Positions 3,601 to 11,838 of a stretch of 64,000 nucleotides of DNA are shown piece by piece; the first letter of the stretch is position 1, and the number at the start of each line of letters is the position of its first letter. The notes below the pieces were generated by a model. The model was not told where the DNA came from and did not search any database. It saw nothing but the letters and a program-made list of their open reading frames with translations. The DNA lies in contig NZ_JADKYM010000009.1 of the NCBI RefSeq assembly GCF_015475875.1, positions 62,001 through 126,000 of the forward strand, given 5' to 3'. The DNA is from Sphingopyxis solisilvae. GTDB taxonomy: Bacteria > Pseudomonadota > Alphaproteobacteria > Sphingomonadales > Sphingomonadaceae. A program made the translations under genes and the position numbers.

Positions 3601-3630
3601 GCTACAAATGTAGCACGCTACAAATGTAGC
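3601..3630. promoter_or_regulatory. two tandem BlaI-type operators
   Basis: The 14-base palindrome GCTACAAATGTAGC occurs twice with no mismatch, at 3601-3614 and 3617-3630, a 16-base period. Each carries the TACA/TGTA half-sites known for BlaI/MecI operators. They end 16 bases before the blaI start and probably cover its promoter; a TTGCCA at 3588-3593 could be the -35 box. This suggests self-repression of the whole operon. Confidence 0.75.
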
Positions 3631-3646
3631 GCATGAGGTGAGTCGC

Positions 3647-4024
3647 ATGTTGTCTAGTTTGCCACCGCGGGAACGCGAGATTGTCGATATTCTCTATGAA
3701 CGCGGTGCGTCGACGGTGACGGAGATCGGCGACGCGCTGTCCGACGAACTGTCGGGATCGGCGATCCGCGCGATGCTCAAGCGGCTGGAGGCGAAGGGCT
3801 TTGTGGCGCGCCAACAATCGGAGCGCGGCTTTGTCTATGCACCGAGCGTGTCGGACAAGACGGCGCGCAAATCGGCGCTGAGCCAGGTCGTGCGGGTGTT
3901 TTTCAACGGATCGGCAACCAGCGCCGCCGCGGCGCTGCTGGGCATGCAGGACGAGATGAGCGCGGACGAACTCGACGAGCTGGAAAAGCTGATCGGGCAG
4001 GCGCGCGAAGGGAGGGCGAAATGA
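3647..4024 (+). CDS. blaI: BlaI/MecI/CopY-family transcriptional repressor
   Basis: A small repressor of about 125 residues. It has the winged-helix domain typical of BlaI (LPPREREIVDILYERG, then SGSAIRAMLKRLEAKGFVARQ as the recognition helix and wing) and a C-terminal dimerisation part rich in Asp/Glu and Leu. In known members the repressor is cleaved after activation of the membrane protease BlaR1/MecR1. Here the next gene is such a protease and overlaps it by 4 bases (ATGA). An upstream in-frame GTG at 3638 is possible, but the purine-rich GAGGTGAG lies just ahead of the ATG at 3647. Confidence 0.9.
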   Translation: MLSSLPPREREIVDILYERGASTVTEIGDALSDELSGSAIRAMLKRLEAKGFVARQQSERGFVYAPSVSDKTARKSALSQVVRVFFNGSATSAAAALLGMQDEMSADELDELEKLIGQAREGRAK

Positions 4025-5778
4025 TGATCACCACCGCGATGCTGATCGGGCTTGCCTGGAAATCGGTGGTGATCGCCGGGCTGACGCTGGCGCTGCTGCG
4101 GTTGGCGCGGACGCGATCGTCGGGCGAGCGATCGCTGGTCGCGCATATCGGCCTGCTTGCGCTGCTGATGCTGCCGGTCGCTTCGCTGGTCCTGCCGCTG
4201 TGGCAGCCGCTGCCCGCAAGCTGGGTTGCCGAGGCGGCCCCGACGGCTTCCGTCCTCACCGAGACAGGGGGATCGGCGGTCGATCCGGCCGTCGCCGCGG
4301 CTTCAGTCCCTGCCGTGGCCGACACCGCCGGCCCGCCGCCGATCAGCCTGTCCGCGTGGGGCGATCTTGCCCCCTTTCTCTATCTTGTCCCGTTCGCGCT
4401 GCTGTTTGGAGTGATGCTGGTCGCGGTGCTGCGGCTGTTCGCGATGCGTCGGCGCGCCGAGGTGCTGGTCGACGGGTCCTGGCTGTCGGCGCTGGCCGAG
4501 GCGCAGCGGCGGATGGGATTCAAACATGGCACTGCGTTGCTGGTCAGCGACGAATTGCGCTCGCCGATCAGCTGGGGGCTGCTGCGCTCGACGATCGTGC
4601 TGAGCCCGAAAGCGGTGCAGGCGGTCGGCGAGGCCGAGGCGATTATCGCGCACGAACTGGCGCATATCACGCGGCTCGACTGGGCGAAACTTCTCGCTGC
4701 GCGCGCCGCCTGTGCGGTGTTCTGGTTCAATCCGCTGGTATGGATGCTGGCGCGCGAGAGCCACCAGCTTCGCGAGGAAGCCGCCGACGACGCGGTGCTG
4801 ATGGCCGACATCGACGGCCCCGATTATGCCAGCCTGCTGGTCGGCGCGGCGCGGCACGACAACAAGGCGGCGTTGATGGCGGCGCACGGCGTCGCGCCGT
4901 CGCAGGGCAGCCTGAAACGCCGCATCACCCGCGTCCTCGATGCGAGCCTGCGGCGTGGACCGGCGAGCGCGAGCTGGGTGTTGATGAGCCTGGTCGTGCT
5001 GGCGGGGCTGACCGCGCCGCTCGCCGCCTTTTCGGCCACCGCGTCCGAAGAGCGGGCTACGGCGAAAGACGCCCGGATCGCGGCACTCGCCGCGCAAAAG
5101 TCGGCTCTGGCGACCAAGCAGCAGGCAACAGCAACCAAGGCCGAGGCAGCGGTGGTGGCCGAAGCCGCCGCGACCGACCGGCGGCTGAGCGCCGAGGAAC
5201 TGGTAAGTCTGCGCGCGGTGGGGGCGACCCCGGACTTTGTCGCGCAGATGCGTGAAGAGAGCGGCCCGATGAGCGCCGGGGAGATTATTTCGGCCAAGGC
5301 GAGCGGGGTCGATCCTGCCTATATCCGGGCCATGCGCCAGATCTTTCCGAAGGTCGATGTCGGCGATCTGATCGGTGCGTCAGCACTGCATATCGAACCA
5401 GCCTTTGCCCGCGACATGAAATCGCATTTCCCCGACATCGGCATCGACGATGTGATCGCGCTGCGCGCGATGGGGATCGACTGCGATTTCGTCACCGACA
5501 TGCAGAAGGCAGGCGTATCGATGCGCAGCGCCGGTGATGCGATCGAACTGCGCGCCACGGGGATGACCCGGTCGCGATCAAAGCCGAAACCGGCAGCCGC
5601 GCGGTCGCAGCGGGGCGCATCGGTCAGCACCGGTCCCAACGGGTCGATGGAAGCGCGCAGCGGCGATGGCCGTGTCGCGCGGATGGAATCTCCGGCACCG
5701 CCTGCAGCGAGCGCCCCCCCGCGCCCCCCGGCGACTGACGCGCGACAAACCGACGCCCGGACATTCGTCCAAGCCTGA
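4021..5778 (+). CDS. M56-family (BlaR1-like) membrane zinc metalloprotease with C-terminal repeats
   Basis: A 585-residue integral membrane protease. Membrane segments are seen at about 5-27, 39-60, 117-140 and 316-339. The zinc site HELAH is at residues 211-215, followed by LREEAADDAVL, as in the M56 family, which senses a signal outside and cleaves the partner repressor BlaI inside. Classic BlaR1 ends in a penicillin-binding domain with STxK; that is absent. Instead residues about 388-514 hold four to five units of roughly 28 residues with the pattern xxDDhIxhRAhGhxPxFhxxM. The tail (about 515-585) is rich in Pro, Ser and Arg. The same repeat appears in the next gene. The signal sensed is therefore unknown. 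Confidence 0.88.
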   Translation: MMITTAMLIGLAWKSVVIAGLTLALLRLARTRSSGERSLVAHIGLLALLMLPVASLVLPLWQPLPASWVAEAAPTASVLTETGGSAVDPAVAAASVPAVADTAGPPPISLSAWGDLAPFLYLVPFALLFGVMLVAVLRLFAMRRRAEVLVDGSWLSALAEAQRRMGFKHGTALLVSDELRSPISWGLLRSTIVLSPKAVQAVGEAEAIIAHELAHITRLDWAKLLAARAACAVFWFNPLVWMLARESHQLREEAADDAVLMADIDGPDYASLLVGAARHDNKAALMAAHGVAPSQGSLKRRITRVLDASLRRGPASASWVLMSLVVLAGLTAPLAAFSATASEERATAKDARIAALAAQKSALATKQQATATKAEAAVVAEAAATDRRLSAEELVSLRAVGATPDFVAQMREESGPMSAGEIISAKASGVDPAYIRAMRQIFPKVDVGDLIGASALHIEPAFARDMKSHFPDIGIDDVIALRAMGIDCDFVTDMQKAGVSMRSAGDAIELRATGMTRSRSKPKPAAARSQRGASVSTGPNGSMEARSGDGRVARMESPAPPAASAPPRPPATDARQTDARTFVQA

Positions 5779-5864
5779 CCATCGTTGATCGAACCATAGT
5801 TTTGAAACGCCGCTGCGGGGGCGAGCGATGACGCTCGTCCCGCGCCGGCCCCAGGAGAAGCTGT

Positions 5865-6596
5865 ATGAAAACCCCCGTACTCGCTGCCACCGCCGCGCTG
5901 CTGACCATCTTGACCTGCGCCGCGCCGAGCAGCGCCGCCGACCCGCTCGTCATGCGCGACATCGAATGGAAGGCGTGGCCCGGCAAGACCCATCCGCAAT
6001 TGCAGGTGAGCCGCGAACGGTCGAGCAGTAGCCTGTCGCTCGACGGCCGCCGCCGTGAACTGGCGCCTGCGCGCGCCGCGATCGGGGGCGGTGCCGGTCC
6101 GGTGGCGTTCACCGTGACGCACGACGCAGGGACGCTCGCCTGTACCGGAGTGCTGACCCGCGCGTTTGAGGGTGGCGGCAGCTGTCGCTTTAATGCCGAC
6201 CCTGCGTTCGAGGCGGCGCTGGATGCACGCGGGCTGAAACCCGACCGGCGCAGCGACACGCTGGCGATGCTGATGGTCGATGCGACGATTGTGCTGGCCG
6301 ACGGGCTGAGCGAGGCCGGGGTCAAACCGAAGGACGCCAACGACCTGATCGCCGCGGCAGCGCTGGAGGTCACGCCCGCCTATATCCGCGACCTCAAATC
6401 CGAGGCATTGGTGCTGACGAAAGTCGACGATGCGATCGCGTGCAAGGCGCTCGGTGTCGATGGCGCCTATATGCGCGGACTGGCCGCGGCGGGCTATCGC
6501 AAGCTGAGTGCCGACGATGTGATTGGCATGAAGGCGCTGGGGGTCACTGGCGCGTATGCGACGGCGATGAACCGCGCGGCGCAGGGGGCCAAGTGA
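5865..6596 (+). CDS. secreted protein with BlaR1-type 28-residue repeats, function unknown
   Basis: A 243-residue exported protein. A signal peptide (1-24, ending PSSA|AD) is followed by a beta-rich region with two cysteines (VTHDAGTLACTG and GGGSCRFNAD, possibly a disulphide). Residues about 145-243 then carry three units of the same repeat as the M56 protease, for example DDAIACKALGVDGAYMRGL and DDVIGMKALGVTGAYATAM. It lies 86 bases after the protease gene and its stop overlaps the next start (TGATG). The shared repeat suggests that it and the protease bind each other or the same target in the periplasm. I know no named function for it. Confidence 0.8.
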   Translation: MKTPVLAATAALLTILTCAAPSSAADPLVMRDIEWKAWPGKTHPQLQVSRERSSSSLSLDGRRRELAPARAAIGGGAGPVAFTVTHDAGTLACTGVLTRAFEGGGSCRFNADPAFEAALDARGLKPDRRSDTLAMLMVDATIVLADGLSEAGVKPKDANDLIAAAALEVTPAYIRDLKSEALVLTKVDDAIACKALGVDGAYMRGLAAAGYRKLSADDVIGMKALGVTGAYATAMNRAAQGAK

Positions 6597-8686
6597 TGCG
6601 GCTGGTCAGCCTTTGCGCTCTCTCCACCGCAATCGCGGTGCCGGCGCTGGCGCAGGAATCGCCGACCACCGGCAACGCACCGCCGCCAGCGGCGAATGAG
6701 GGTGCGGCAAGCGGCAACAGCGCCGGACGGCAAGTTTTTACTCCCGCCGATTTTGCCCGCTACGCGCCGACCAACGCCTATGACATGCTCAATCAGGTTC
6801 CCGGATTTTCGATCCGCGACAATGAAAATCTGCGCGGACTGGGGCAGGCGACGGGCAATGTGCTGTTCAACGGCGAGCGGCCGTCGAACAAGGGCGACGA
6901 TATGTACACCCAATTATCGCGCATCCCCGCGGGCAATGTCGAGCGGATCGAGATTGTCGATGGAGCAACGCTGGATATTCCCGGTCTTTCGGGACAGGTC
7001 GCCAATGTCGTCTATCGCGCGGCAAGCTTTTCGGGACAATTTTCGTGGAAGCCCGAATTTCGCGCCCATTATACCGACCCGCTGCTGACCCGCGCCGACG
7101 TGTCGATCCGCGGCACCGCAGGGGCGGTGGAATATGAGGCGGCGCTGAGCAACGACGATTCGGCGCGCAGCGGCGCGGGCGGGGTGACGCTGATTGCCGA
7201 TGGTGCGGGCAATATCGTCGAACGCCGTGACGACATCTGGAACACCCATTATGACTCGCCGAAACTGTCGGGACGGATCAAATGGGCCGTGCCGGGCGGC
7301 AGCATCGTCAATTTTGGCGGTCATTATCAGCGCCAATATTACCGCTATGACGAAGATGGCGTTCGCACGGCGGCGGGACAGGCCGACCGCCTGCGCACGG
7401 TGCGCGACACCGAAAACACCTGGAATTACGAGCTGGGCGGCGACTGGCAGTTCGGACTGGGGCCGGGCAAGCTGAAGCTGATCGGGCTACGGCGCTTTAG
7501 CCACGAACCCTATTCGCAAGAGGTTATCACCCGCTTCGCCGATGGCGCGCCGTCGACCGGCGACCGCTTTGCGCAGACCGGAAAACTGGGCGAGACGATC
7601 GCGCGGGGCGAATATCAGTGGAAGATGTTCGGCGGCGACTGGCAATTGTCGGGCGAGGCGGCGTTCAACAATCTGGACAATGTCGCTTCGATCGGGGTGC
7701 TCGTTCCCGGCAGCGGATTCGTCGACCAGCCGTTTGCCGGTGGTACCGGCGGGGTGAGCGAGGACCGGTACGAAGGCTTGCTGAGTTTTGGGCGCCCGTT
7801 GACGGACAAGCTGTCGTTCCAGATCGTCGCGGGGGCCGAACATTCGACCATCGCGCAGGCGGGGCCGACCGGAATCGAACGCAGCTTTTTCCGGCCCAAG
7901 GGGTCGTTGACGCTGAGCTGGGCGGCGTCGGCCGATTTCGACGCATCGCTGAAAATCCGGCGGCGGGTGTTGCAGCTGTCCTTTTACGACTTTCTGGGCC
8001 GCGCCTTTTTGAATGACGGCAACCAGAACGAGAATAATTTCGACCTGCGCCCGCAGCAGGACTGGAGTTTCGAGTTCGAGGCGAACCGGAAATTCGGCGC
8101 GTGGGGCTCGACCAAGCTGATCCTGATCCACCGCGACGTCGAGGACCGCGTCGACATCGTCCCGGTCGGCAATGGCGAGGCAGTGGGCAATATCGCCAAA
8201 GCAAAGGCCAGCGCGATCGACTGGACCGCGACGGTCAACCTCGACCCGGCGGGGATCAAAGGCATGAAGGTCGAAACGCGCGTGCTGTTGCAGAAATCGT
8301 CGCTGCGCGATCCGTTTACCGGCGAAAAGCGGCAATGGAGCGGTTTTACCGATACCGTGATCGAAGGCAGCGTCCGCCACGATATCCCCGGCAGCGACTG
8401 GGCATGGGGGGGCGGAGCGAATTACGGTCATTACCAGCCGCGCTATCGCAGCAACCAGGTCGATAAAGTGTGGGAGGGGCCGGTGTTTGCCAACGTCTTT
8501 GTCGAGCACAAGAATGTGATGGGGCTGACGGTGCGCGCGCAGGTCCGCAATATCGCGAACGCCCGTTCAAGGCGCGAACGGATCGTATATTCCGGCTTGC
8601 GCGGCGACAGCGCGGTCGCCTTTACCGAATCGCGCGACCGGCTGATCGGGCCGATCTTCTCCTTTTCGGCGCGCGGGACGTTTTGA
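6596..8686 (+). CDS. TonB-dependent outer membrane receptor
   Basis: A 696-residue outer-membrane protein. A signal peptide (ending ALAQE) is followed by a plug domain (about 45-140, TPADFARYAPTNAYDMLNQVPGFSIRD split over two strands, then VERIEIVDGATLDIPGLSGQ). The rest alternates in the way of a beta-barrel and ends in phenylalanine (SFSARGTF), as outer-membrane barrels do. The N-terminal reading frame can be extended back into the previous gene, but the start at 6596 overlaps that gene's stop by one base and begins the signal peptide. It is the last gene of the blaI operon, so its expression is probably released when BlaI is cleaved. The substrate is unknown. Confidence 0.85.
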   Translation: MRLVSLCALSTAIAVPALAQESPTTGNAPPPAANEGAASGNSAGRQVFTPADFARYAPTNAYDMLNQVPGFSIRDNENLRGLGQATGNVLFNGERPSNKGDDMYTQLSRIPAGNVERIEIVDGATLDIPGLSGQVANVVYRAASFSGQFSWKPEFRAHYTDPLLTRADVSIRGTAGAVEYEAALSNDDSARSGAGGVTLIADGAGNIVERRDDIWNTHYDSPKLSGRIKWAVPGGSIVNFGGHYQRQYYRYDEDGVRTAAGQADRLRTVRDTENTWNYELGGDWQFGLGPGKLKLIGLRRFSHEPYSQEVITRFADGAPSTGDRFAQTGKLGETIARGEYQWKMFGGDWQLSGEAAFNNLDNVASIGVLVPGSGFVDQPFAGGTGGVSEDRYEGLLSFGRPLTDKLSFQIVAGAEHSTIAQAGPTGIERSFFRPKGSLTLSWAASADFDASLKIRRRVLQLSFYDFLGRAFLNDGNQNENNFDLRPQQDWSFEFEANRKFGAWGSTKLILIHRDVEDRVDIVPVGNGEAVGNIAKAKASAIDWTATVNLDPAGIKGMKVETRVLLQKSSLRDPFTGEKRQWSGFTDTVIEGSVRHDIPGSDWAWGGGANYGHYQPRYRSNQVDKVWEGPVFANVFVEHKNVMGLTVRAQVRNIANARSRRERIVYSGLRGDSAVAFTESRDRLIGPIFSFSARGTF

Positions 8687-10998: not shown

Positions 10999-11838
10999 AT
11001 GAGTGTTATCAATGGAATGGCGGCCGCCGTATCGCTCGCACTATCGGCTGCCGGGATTTTCGCAGCGACTGAAACCAGTCAATTGTCGGCTGAAAGCACG
11101 GCTCGATGGGAAGTCGATTATGGCGAAACGAAATGCCGTTTGATCCGGCATTTCGGTAGCGGCAGCGATGGTGGCCGTTTGGAAATTGCGCGCGACTGGA
11201 GTTTTGGCGGTTATTCGTGGATTTTGGTAGGCGCAAATGTCCCGGTTTATACATCCGCGACGCCAGTTACGGTTACGTTGAGCCCTTCGCTCGCCGCACA
11301 CCGGTTTCAAGCTAACCCTTACCTGTTGGATCTGCGCACTGCGCGAGGCGTCGGTTGGAGTGATACCGATAACAGGCTTGTCGACGCGCTCCGCAGCGAT
11401 CAGCAGATCACGGTGACGGGAGCAAAAAAGCTAAACGTGGCAATTGGTTTGCCCAACGCGCCGGACGCGTTGAAGGCATTGGAAGCTTGTGACGACGATT
11501 TGATCGCTGGCTGGGGATTTGATGCTCGCCAACAGCGCTCTCTTTCGGCCCAGGTAAAGCCGTCGAATAATCCTGGTCGCTGGGTAACCAACAATGATTA
11601 CCCGCGCGAAGATTTCGTTCGTAAGAATGAGGGTTTGACGACATTCCTTTTGAGCGTTGGCATAGATGGCGGTGTGACCGGGTGCCGGATCGTCGGCAGT
11701 TCGGGATTTCCAAGCCTGGATAAACGGACGTGCGAATTGCTGAATGCGCGCGCGGCATTTGCGCCCGCCAAGGATAGCAGTGGTCGGCCTGTGGCAAGCT
11801 TCTATATCAACAGAGTCTGGTGGCAGGTGCCGCGGTAG
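10999..11838 (+). CDS. exported protein with TonB C-terminal-like domain
   Basis: A 279-residue protein. The N-terminus looks like a signal peptide (MSVINGMAAAVSLALSAAGIFAATE). The middle is a beta-rich region without a family I recognise. The last 80 residues (about 195-279: YPREDFVRKNEGLTTFLLSV, then GVTGCRIVGSSGFPSLDKRT and CELLNARAAFAPAKDSSG) follow the pattern of the TonB C-terminal domain common in sphingomonads, with paired cysteines. The proline-rich linker and N-terminal membrane anchor of true TonB are missing. Its base composition is visibly less GC-rich than its neighbours, which hints at recent acquisition. Confidence 0.65.
   Translation: MSVINGMAAAVSLALSAAGIFAATETSQLSAESTARWEVDYGETKCRLIRHFGSGSDGGRLEIARDWSFGGYSWILVGANVPVYTSATPVTVTLSPSLAAHRFQANPYLLDLRTARGVGWSDTDNRLVDALRSDQQITVTGAKKLNVAIGLPNAPDALKALEACDDDLIAGWGFDARQQRSLSAQVKPSNNPGRWVTNNDYPREDFVRKNEGLTTFLLSVGIDGGVTGCRIVGSSGFPSLDKRTCELLNARAAFAPAKDSSGRPVASFYINRVWWQVPR

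Follow-up and report, generated by a model that had tools for sequence, protein, structure and literature searches.

To our knowledge, BlaR1-type M56 proteases have been described almost exclusively as sensors of beta-lactams. M56 genes without a penicillin-binding sensor domain also occur in bacteria, and the mycobacterial Rv1846c/Rv1845c is a BlaI/M56 pair that works outside classic beta-lactamase induction; we know of no repeat module or receptor operon for that pair, which is set beside the present locus by description only. In the BlaR1 system, BlaI represses transcription, a signal at the ectodomain activates a cytoplasmic zinc protease, and BlaI is cleaved (PMC7593790).

The unit described here is a four-gene operon of Sphingopyxis solisilvae, lying in a window of 64,000 nt (the whole stretch of DNA that was analyzed). 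With BlaI-BlaR1 and MecI-MecR1 of staphylococci and Bacillus licheniformis it shares the repressor family, an M56 protease with an HExxH motif, TACA/TGTA operators, and the repressor-protease gene pair. Unlike them, it has no penicillin-binding ectodomain, carrying instead a repeat tail and a separate secreted partner, and its apparent output is a TonB-dependent receptor rather than a beta-lactamase or PBP2a. A second point of comparison is cell-surface signalling by a TonB-dependent receptor, an anti-sigma factor and an ECF sigma factor (PMC7593790), in which, as proposed here, regulated proteolysis controls a TonB-dependent receptor gene; in the Sphingopyxis unit, however, BlaI and M56 replace the sigma and anti-sigma factors, and the receptor has no recognized N-terminal signalling domain. 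Our literature search, to which subscription journals were mostly closed, found nothing linking BlaI/M56 to a TonB receptor or describing the repeat or the partner.

Gene content of the operon

The operators, genes and intergenic element are as follows (window coordinates).

3601..3614, no strand assigned: operator 1, exact match to GCTACAAATGTAGC
3617..3630, no strand assigned: operator 2, exact match to GCTACAAATGTAGC, centre-to-centre 16 bp from operator 1
3647..4024, + strand: blaI-type repressor gene (Pfam Penicillinase_R, E 9e-24, over cut-off)
4021..5778, + strand: M56 (BlaR1-type) membrane protease gene (Peptidase_M56, E 2e-29, residues 61-303)
5820..5839, + strand: conserved stem-loop GGCGAGCGATGACGCTCGTC between the protease and partner genes (columns 30-49 of the alignment of 5791-5864)
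5865..6596, + strand: secreted partner gene (signal peptide, six-strand beta domain at residues 29-111, helical repeats at about 129-242)
6596..8686, + strand: TonB-dependent receptor gene, ATG at 6596 (Pfam Plug, E 5e-10, over cut-off)

The initial, sequence-only reading had named a blaI gene, an M56 protease with HELAH but without a penicillin-binding sensor, two perfect operators, and a one-base stop/start overlap between the partner and receptor genes. All of these were borne out by the profile matches and exact sites listed above and by the sequence TGATG at 6594-6598; in most relatives the partner/receptor overlap is four bases. For blaI, the ATG at 3647 behind AGGTGA is a likelier start than the GTG at 3638, and both AGGTGA and ATG are conserved in relatives. 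On profile evidence the unit belongs to the BlaI and M56 families.

HELAH occupies residues 211-215 of the protease and is invariant across 26 sequences. Hydropathy places four hydrophobic segments near residues 5-29, 37-64, 114-144 and 314-342, so that the Peptidase_M56 domain has its HExxH between transmembrane segments. From hydropathy and the example of BlaR1, the protease would span the inner membrane with a cytoplasmic zinc site and a periplasmic repeat tail. BlaR1 and MecR1 carry a C-terminal penicillin-binding (class D beta-lactamase-like) sensor; here the tail consists of helical repeats. Searches of Pfam and NCBIfam detected neither a transpeptidase nor a beta-lactamase nor any other sensor domain in the protease at E<=1, and the model NF000326 (blaR1_generic) scored 66.5 bits against a cut-off of 400, over residues 121-343 only. 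One finding named in advance as able to overturn the first reading, a tail with a penicillin-binding domain or another known sensor, was thus rejected. Since a search for the domain that defines BlaR1/MecR1 beta-lactam sensors came back empty, the Sphingopyxis M56 protein is, judged by its domains, not one of them.

The structure model of the protease is poor outside the repeats (mean pLDDT 59.9), and a fold search with it gave no match at E<=0.001. The final ~30 protease residues (5679-5778) are unlike those of relatives, as if a small indel had shifted the frame past residue ~556; the proteases of relatives have a conserved proline-rich C-terminus (PPxPP).

The receptor's barrel matched no Pfam model, and Pfam found no N-terminal signalling domain on it. 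FecA-type cell-surface signalling pairs such a domain with adjacent sigma and anti-sigma genes; the neighbors here are blaI and the M56 gene. Downstream of the operon, at 10999-11838 and shortly after an MreB-like gene, lies a gene for a TonB C-terminal domain protein (PF03544, E 4e-9). Anti-phage defence models had no match.

Secreted partner and intergenic stem-loop

The secreted partner was modelled with a mean pLDDT of 88.5, and its nearest named relatives come from Sphingopyxis. It matched no Pfam or NCBIfam family, and a Foldseek search of its fold returned nothing at E<=0.001. Comparison of its beta domain with PAS/Cache folds gave a best Z of 5.4 over 81 residues (rmsd 3.2), below the tool's meaningful level; the modelled domain thus weakly resembles PAS/Cache sensor domains, and we treat the likeness as a lead. 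No convincing relative of solved structure was found for the secreted protein or the receptor. The partner is unlikely to be a lipoprotein, because the cysteine of its signal peptide is not conserved among the aligned homologs (F in L049, S in L052 and L053).

The stem-loop lies a short distance upstream of the partner's ribosome site. Nearly all of the 27 sequences aligned from Sphingopyxis operons retain its stem, the inner part of which is near-invariant. Covariation in the same 27 sequences did not rise above shuffles, and for that reason we do not claim a functional RNA; a standard terminator was rejected because no run of T follows the stem.

Operators and regulon

Exact GCTACAAATGTAGC occurs twice in the window, both times upstream of blaI. 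Allowing up to two mismatches on both strands gave four matches at the same two places, where shuffles of the whole window predict 0.11. Both operators are kept in 28/28 blaI-bearing Sphingopyxis stretches (window included), in each of which the exact TACAAATGTA core occurs twice with a spacing that hardly varies, and two TACA(N2)TGTA-type dyads were present at 19 of the 23 other Sphingomonadaceae M56 loci. TACA/TGTA dyads upstream of blaI characterize BlaI/MecI systems, and the two exact, conserved dyads found here are putative sites of this kind.

Genome-wide, S. solisilvae has three copies of the exact 12-mer operator core: the two described and one before a second BlaI/M56 pair (G000:C7, L062:7618-9647). 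That pair is alike in its BlaI, its M56 protease and a near-identical operator, ACTACAAATGTAGT, but its M56 tail lacks the 28-residue repeat and no beta-plus-repeat partner adjoins it. The two BlaI proteins may cross-talk. Downstream of the second pair, on the same strand, is a gene of the metallo-beta-lactamase fold (L062:5318-6244).

Extra single core sites in the other Sphingopyxis genomes inspected fell at the second BlaI/M56 pair, before an S41-peptidase gene, or within coding sequence. Among the sites listed, closely spaced operator pairs stood at the four-gene operon. Since the sole paired operators among these sites lie upstream of this operon, the TonB-dependent receptor appears, from the sites, to be the evident output of the BlaI/M56 switch. 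In other Sphingopyxis stretches (L209, L211, L213, L215, L216, L219, L222 and L224) a single core sits at or just upstream of a secreted-protein gene, and all three of the products checked (L211, L215, L216) were S41-family peptidases; the S. solisilvae genome showed no core so placed.

Conservation of the four-gene unit

The Sphingopyxis set comprised 31 genomes: 28 that matched the partner, the window, G263 and strain PET50. The partner went unmatched in 7 of 35 same-genus genomes. The four genes were found in unbroken order in 29/31, and the other two loci were cut by contig ends (G010 is split over two contigs and G032 begins inside the M56 gene); no Sphingopyxis genome having the locus contradicted the order. 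Loss of the four-gene order in relatives, the other finding that would have told against the sequence-only reading, was thus not seen. In PET50 (L105) the M56 repeat region lies in another frame, perhaps through a frameshift.

Elsewhere in the Sphingomonadaceae, 13 of 23 M56 loci held the whole four-gene unit, six had the protease and partner but nothing matching the receptor within 2.5 kb, and four had the protease and receptor with no adjacent partner. Outside this family, no receptor was found adjoining the system, and, judged by gene neighborhoods, the receptor gene was added in Sphingomonadaceae and lies outside the core.

A repeat shared by the protease and its partner

The sequence-only reading had also described a repeat of roughly 28 residues common to the protease and the secreted protein. 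This repeat is real, and the residue ranges first given for it are right to within a few residues. A profile of the secreted-protein repeat scored 79.5 bits on protease residues 386-520, against 8.4 for the best of 2000 shuffles. Repeats cover protease residues ~388-514 (modelled helices 391-513, pLDDT 84-97) and, in the structure model, residues ~129-242 of the secreted protein. In high-confidence AlphaFold2 models of both, each unit of about 28 residues forms two helices, a helical hairpin. The cross-phylum consensus is roughly LSADxLxxxKAxGVTPxYIxxMxxAGY, and no curated family in Pfam or NCBIfam covers the repeat or the beta domain.

The repeat was confined to this one locus in the S. solisilvae genome and to one locus in each of eight Bacteroidota, Acidobacteriota and Myxococcota genomes; some Acidobacteriota genomes carry more than one. 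A broad draw of Pseudomonadota yielded it at E<=1e-6 in 4/398 genomes, and it was found in 30/198 Bacteroidota and 20/149 Acidobacteriota genomes, some of the Bacteroidota matches being to an unrelated-looking repeat. Bacteroidota proteins of ~230-290 residues with similar repeats (L325, L328, L329, L330) adjoin a conserved response-regulator-like gene at the loci examined; lacking both a beta domain and an M56 gene, they were excluded as a separate family or a case of convergence.

Fused and split forms across phyla

We tracked the beta-plus-repeat module across phyla with profiles built in this analysis. Many of the loci were found via the repeat itself and so are uninformative on its frequency among all M56 proteases; placement of the beta domain was not a selection criterion. 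At all 15 Bacteroidota loci, which include Mucilaginibacter, Pedobacter and Chitinophagaceae, the module is fused into the M56 ectodomain, C-terminal to the protease part, and three of them have extra free copies besides the fused form. Acidobacteriota M56 loci were split in seven cases (three of them with protease and partner genes overlapping by four bases), fused in two, and in three had a repeat-only M56 without an adjacent partner. The one Myxococcota locus, from Archangium, is split. Within the Sphingomonadaceae the form is split wherever an adjacent partner exists, including 19 non-Sphingopyxis loci with a partner beside a repeat-only M56. The protease-partner pairing thus spans four phyla, and BlaI precedes M56 at these loci wherever the contig reaches far enough.

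By the fused-gene argument, a module that is fused in Bacteroidota and usually split elsewhere leads one to expect joint sensing by the protease tail and the secreted protein. The comparison suggests that the two form a single periplasmic sensor, and it lends indirect strength to the earlier proposal of a protease that senses the repeat protein. Among the part pairs tested, with protease-domain distance removed, the two repeat regions covary most (partial r 0.61), a value confounded by the tree; given shared ancestry, this covariation is weak backing for the sensor reading.

In about 15 of the stretches examined, a free beta-plus-repeat protein is encoded and the retrieved DNA contains no M56 gene (among them L307, L308, L311, L314, L315, L317, L320, L321, L116, L127 and L171), so the partner can act elsewhere.

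A probable two-piece sensor and its alternatives

We favor, as the probable explanation, a BlaI/M56 antirepressor switch with a two-piece, non-beta-lactam sensor that drives its own operon, receptor included. BlaI bound to both operators would keep the operon off. The secreted beta-plus-repeat protein would be the detached half of an M56 ectodomain, as the fused Bacteroidota form suggests, and would detect a periplasmic or imported cue jointly with the protease tail. On the cue, the protease would cleave BlaI, the operon would be expressed, and more partner and receptor would be made; the receptor may import the signal, closing the loop. Counting against this account are the free copies without M56, the loci without an adjacent partner (four in Sphingomonadaceae, three in Acidobacteriota), the three Bacteroidota loci at which a fused form and free copies occur together, so that one does not strictly rule out the other, and the poor protease model outside the repeats. 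The sequence-only proposal of a derived, non-beta-lactam switch that releases the receptor gene is partly supported by the Sphingopyxis operon, with its BlaI/M56 pair lacking a penicillin-binding sensor, its conserved order and its paired operators found only here; it does not extend to the system at large, where the receptor is outside the core and was not found adjoining it beyond the Sphingomonadaceae.

The shared repeat and co-expression under one repressor would also give negative feedback if the secreted protein were a titratable inhibitor that, like CpxP or RseB, silenced the protease by sitting on its repeats until a ligand or misfolded envelope protein drew it off. We think this unlikely: in Bacteroidota the module and the protease are a single polypeptide, as would be expected of a sensor domain more than of an inhibitor that can come off, and four loci have no adjacent partner. 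It is more doubtful still that the secreted protein is a periplasmic cargo-handling helper of the receptor, resembling the protease tail by ancestry only. The partner gene does overlap the receptor gene, by one or four bases in most relatives, but the Acidobacteriota and Myxococcota partners adjoin a protease at loci where nothing adjacent matches the receptor, and at four Sphingomonadaceae loci a receptor gene is present while an adjacent partner is missing. The families and the TACA/TGTA operators, as in bla and mec systems, would suit an ordinary BlaR1 relative that responds to beta-lactams or cell-wall stress through an unrecognized penicillin-binding tail; with Pfam and NCBIfam showing no such domain at E<=1, a tail of helical repeats, and no beta-lactamase gene in the operon, we regard this as very improbable.

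A broader form of the two-piece sensor reading, which we put forward only tentatively, is that a new periplasmic module, the beta domain plus 28-residue repeats, may define a cross-phylum class of BlaI/M56 systems, and that in Sphingomonadaceae the split sensor may detect a substrate imported by the very receptor it controls, a closed loop without sigma factors.

Implications

Together with its relatives, fused and split, in four phyla, the operon presents a candidate second sensory class of M56 switches that can be put to the test. Comparison of the fused and split forms points to the pair of proteins expected to be in contact and to the surfaces worth testing, and the Sphingopyxis operon itself offers a putative proteolytic route to the control of an outer-membrane receptor.
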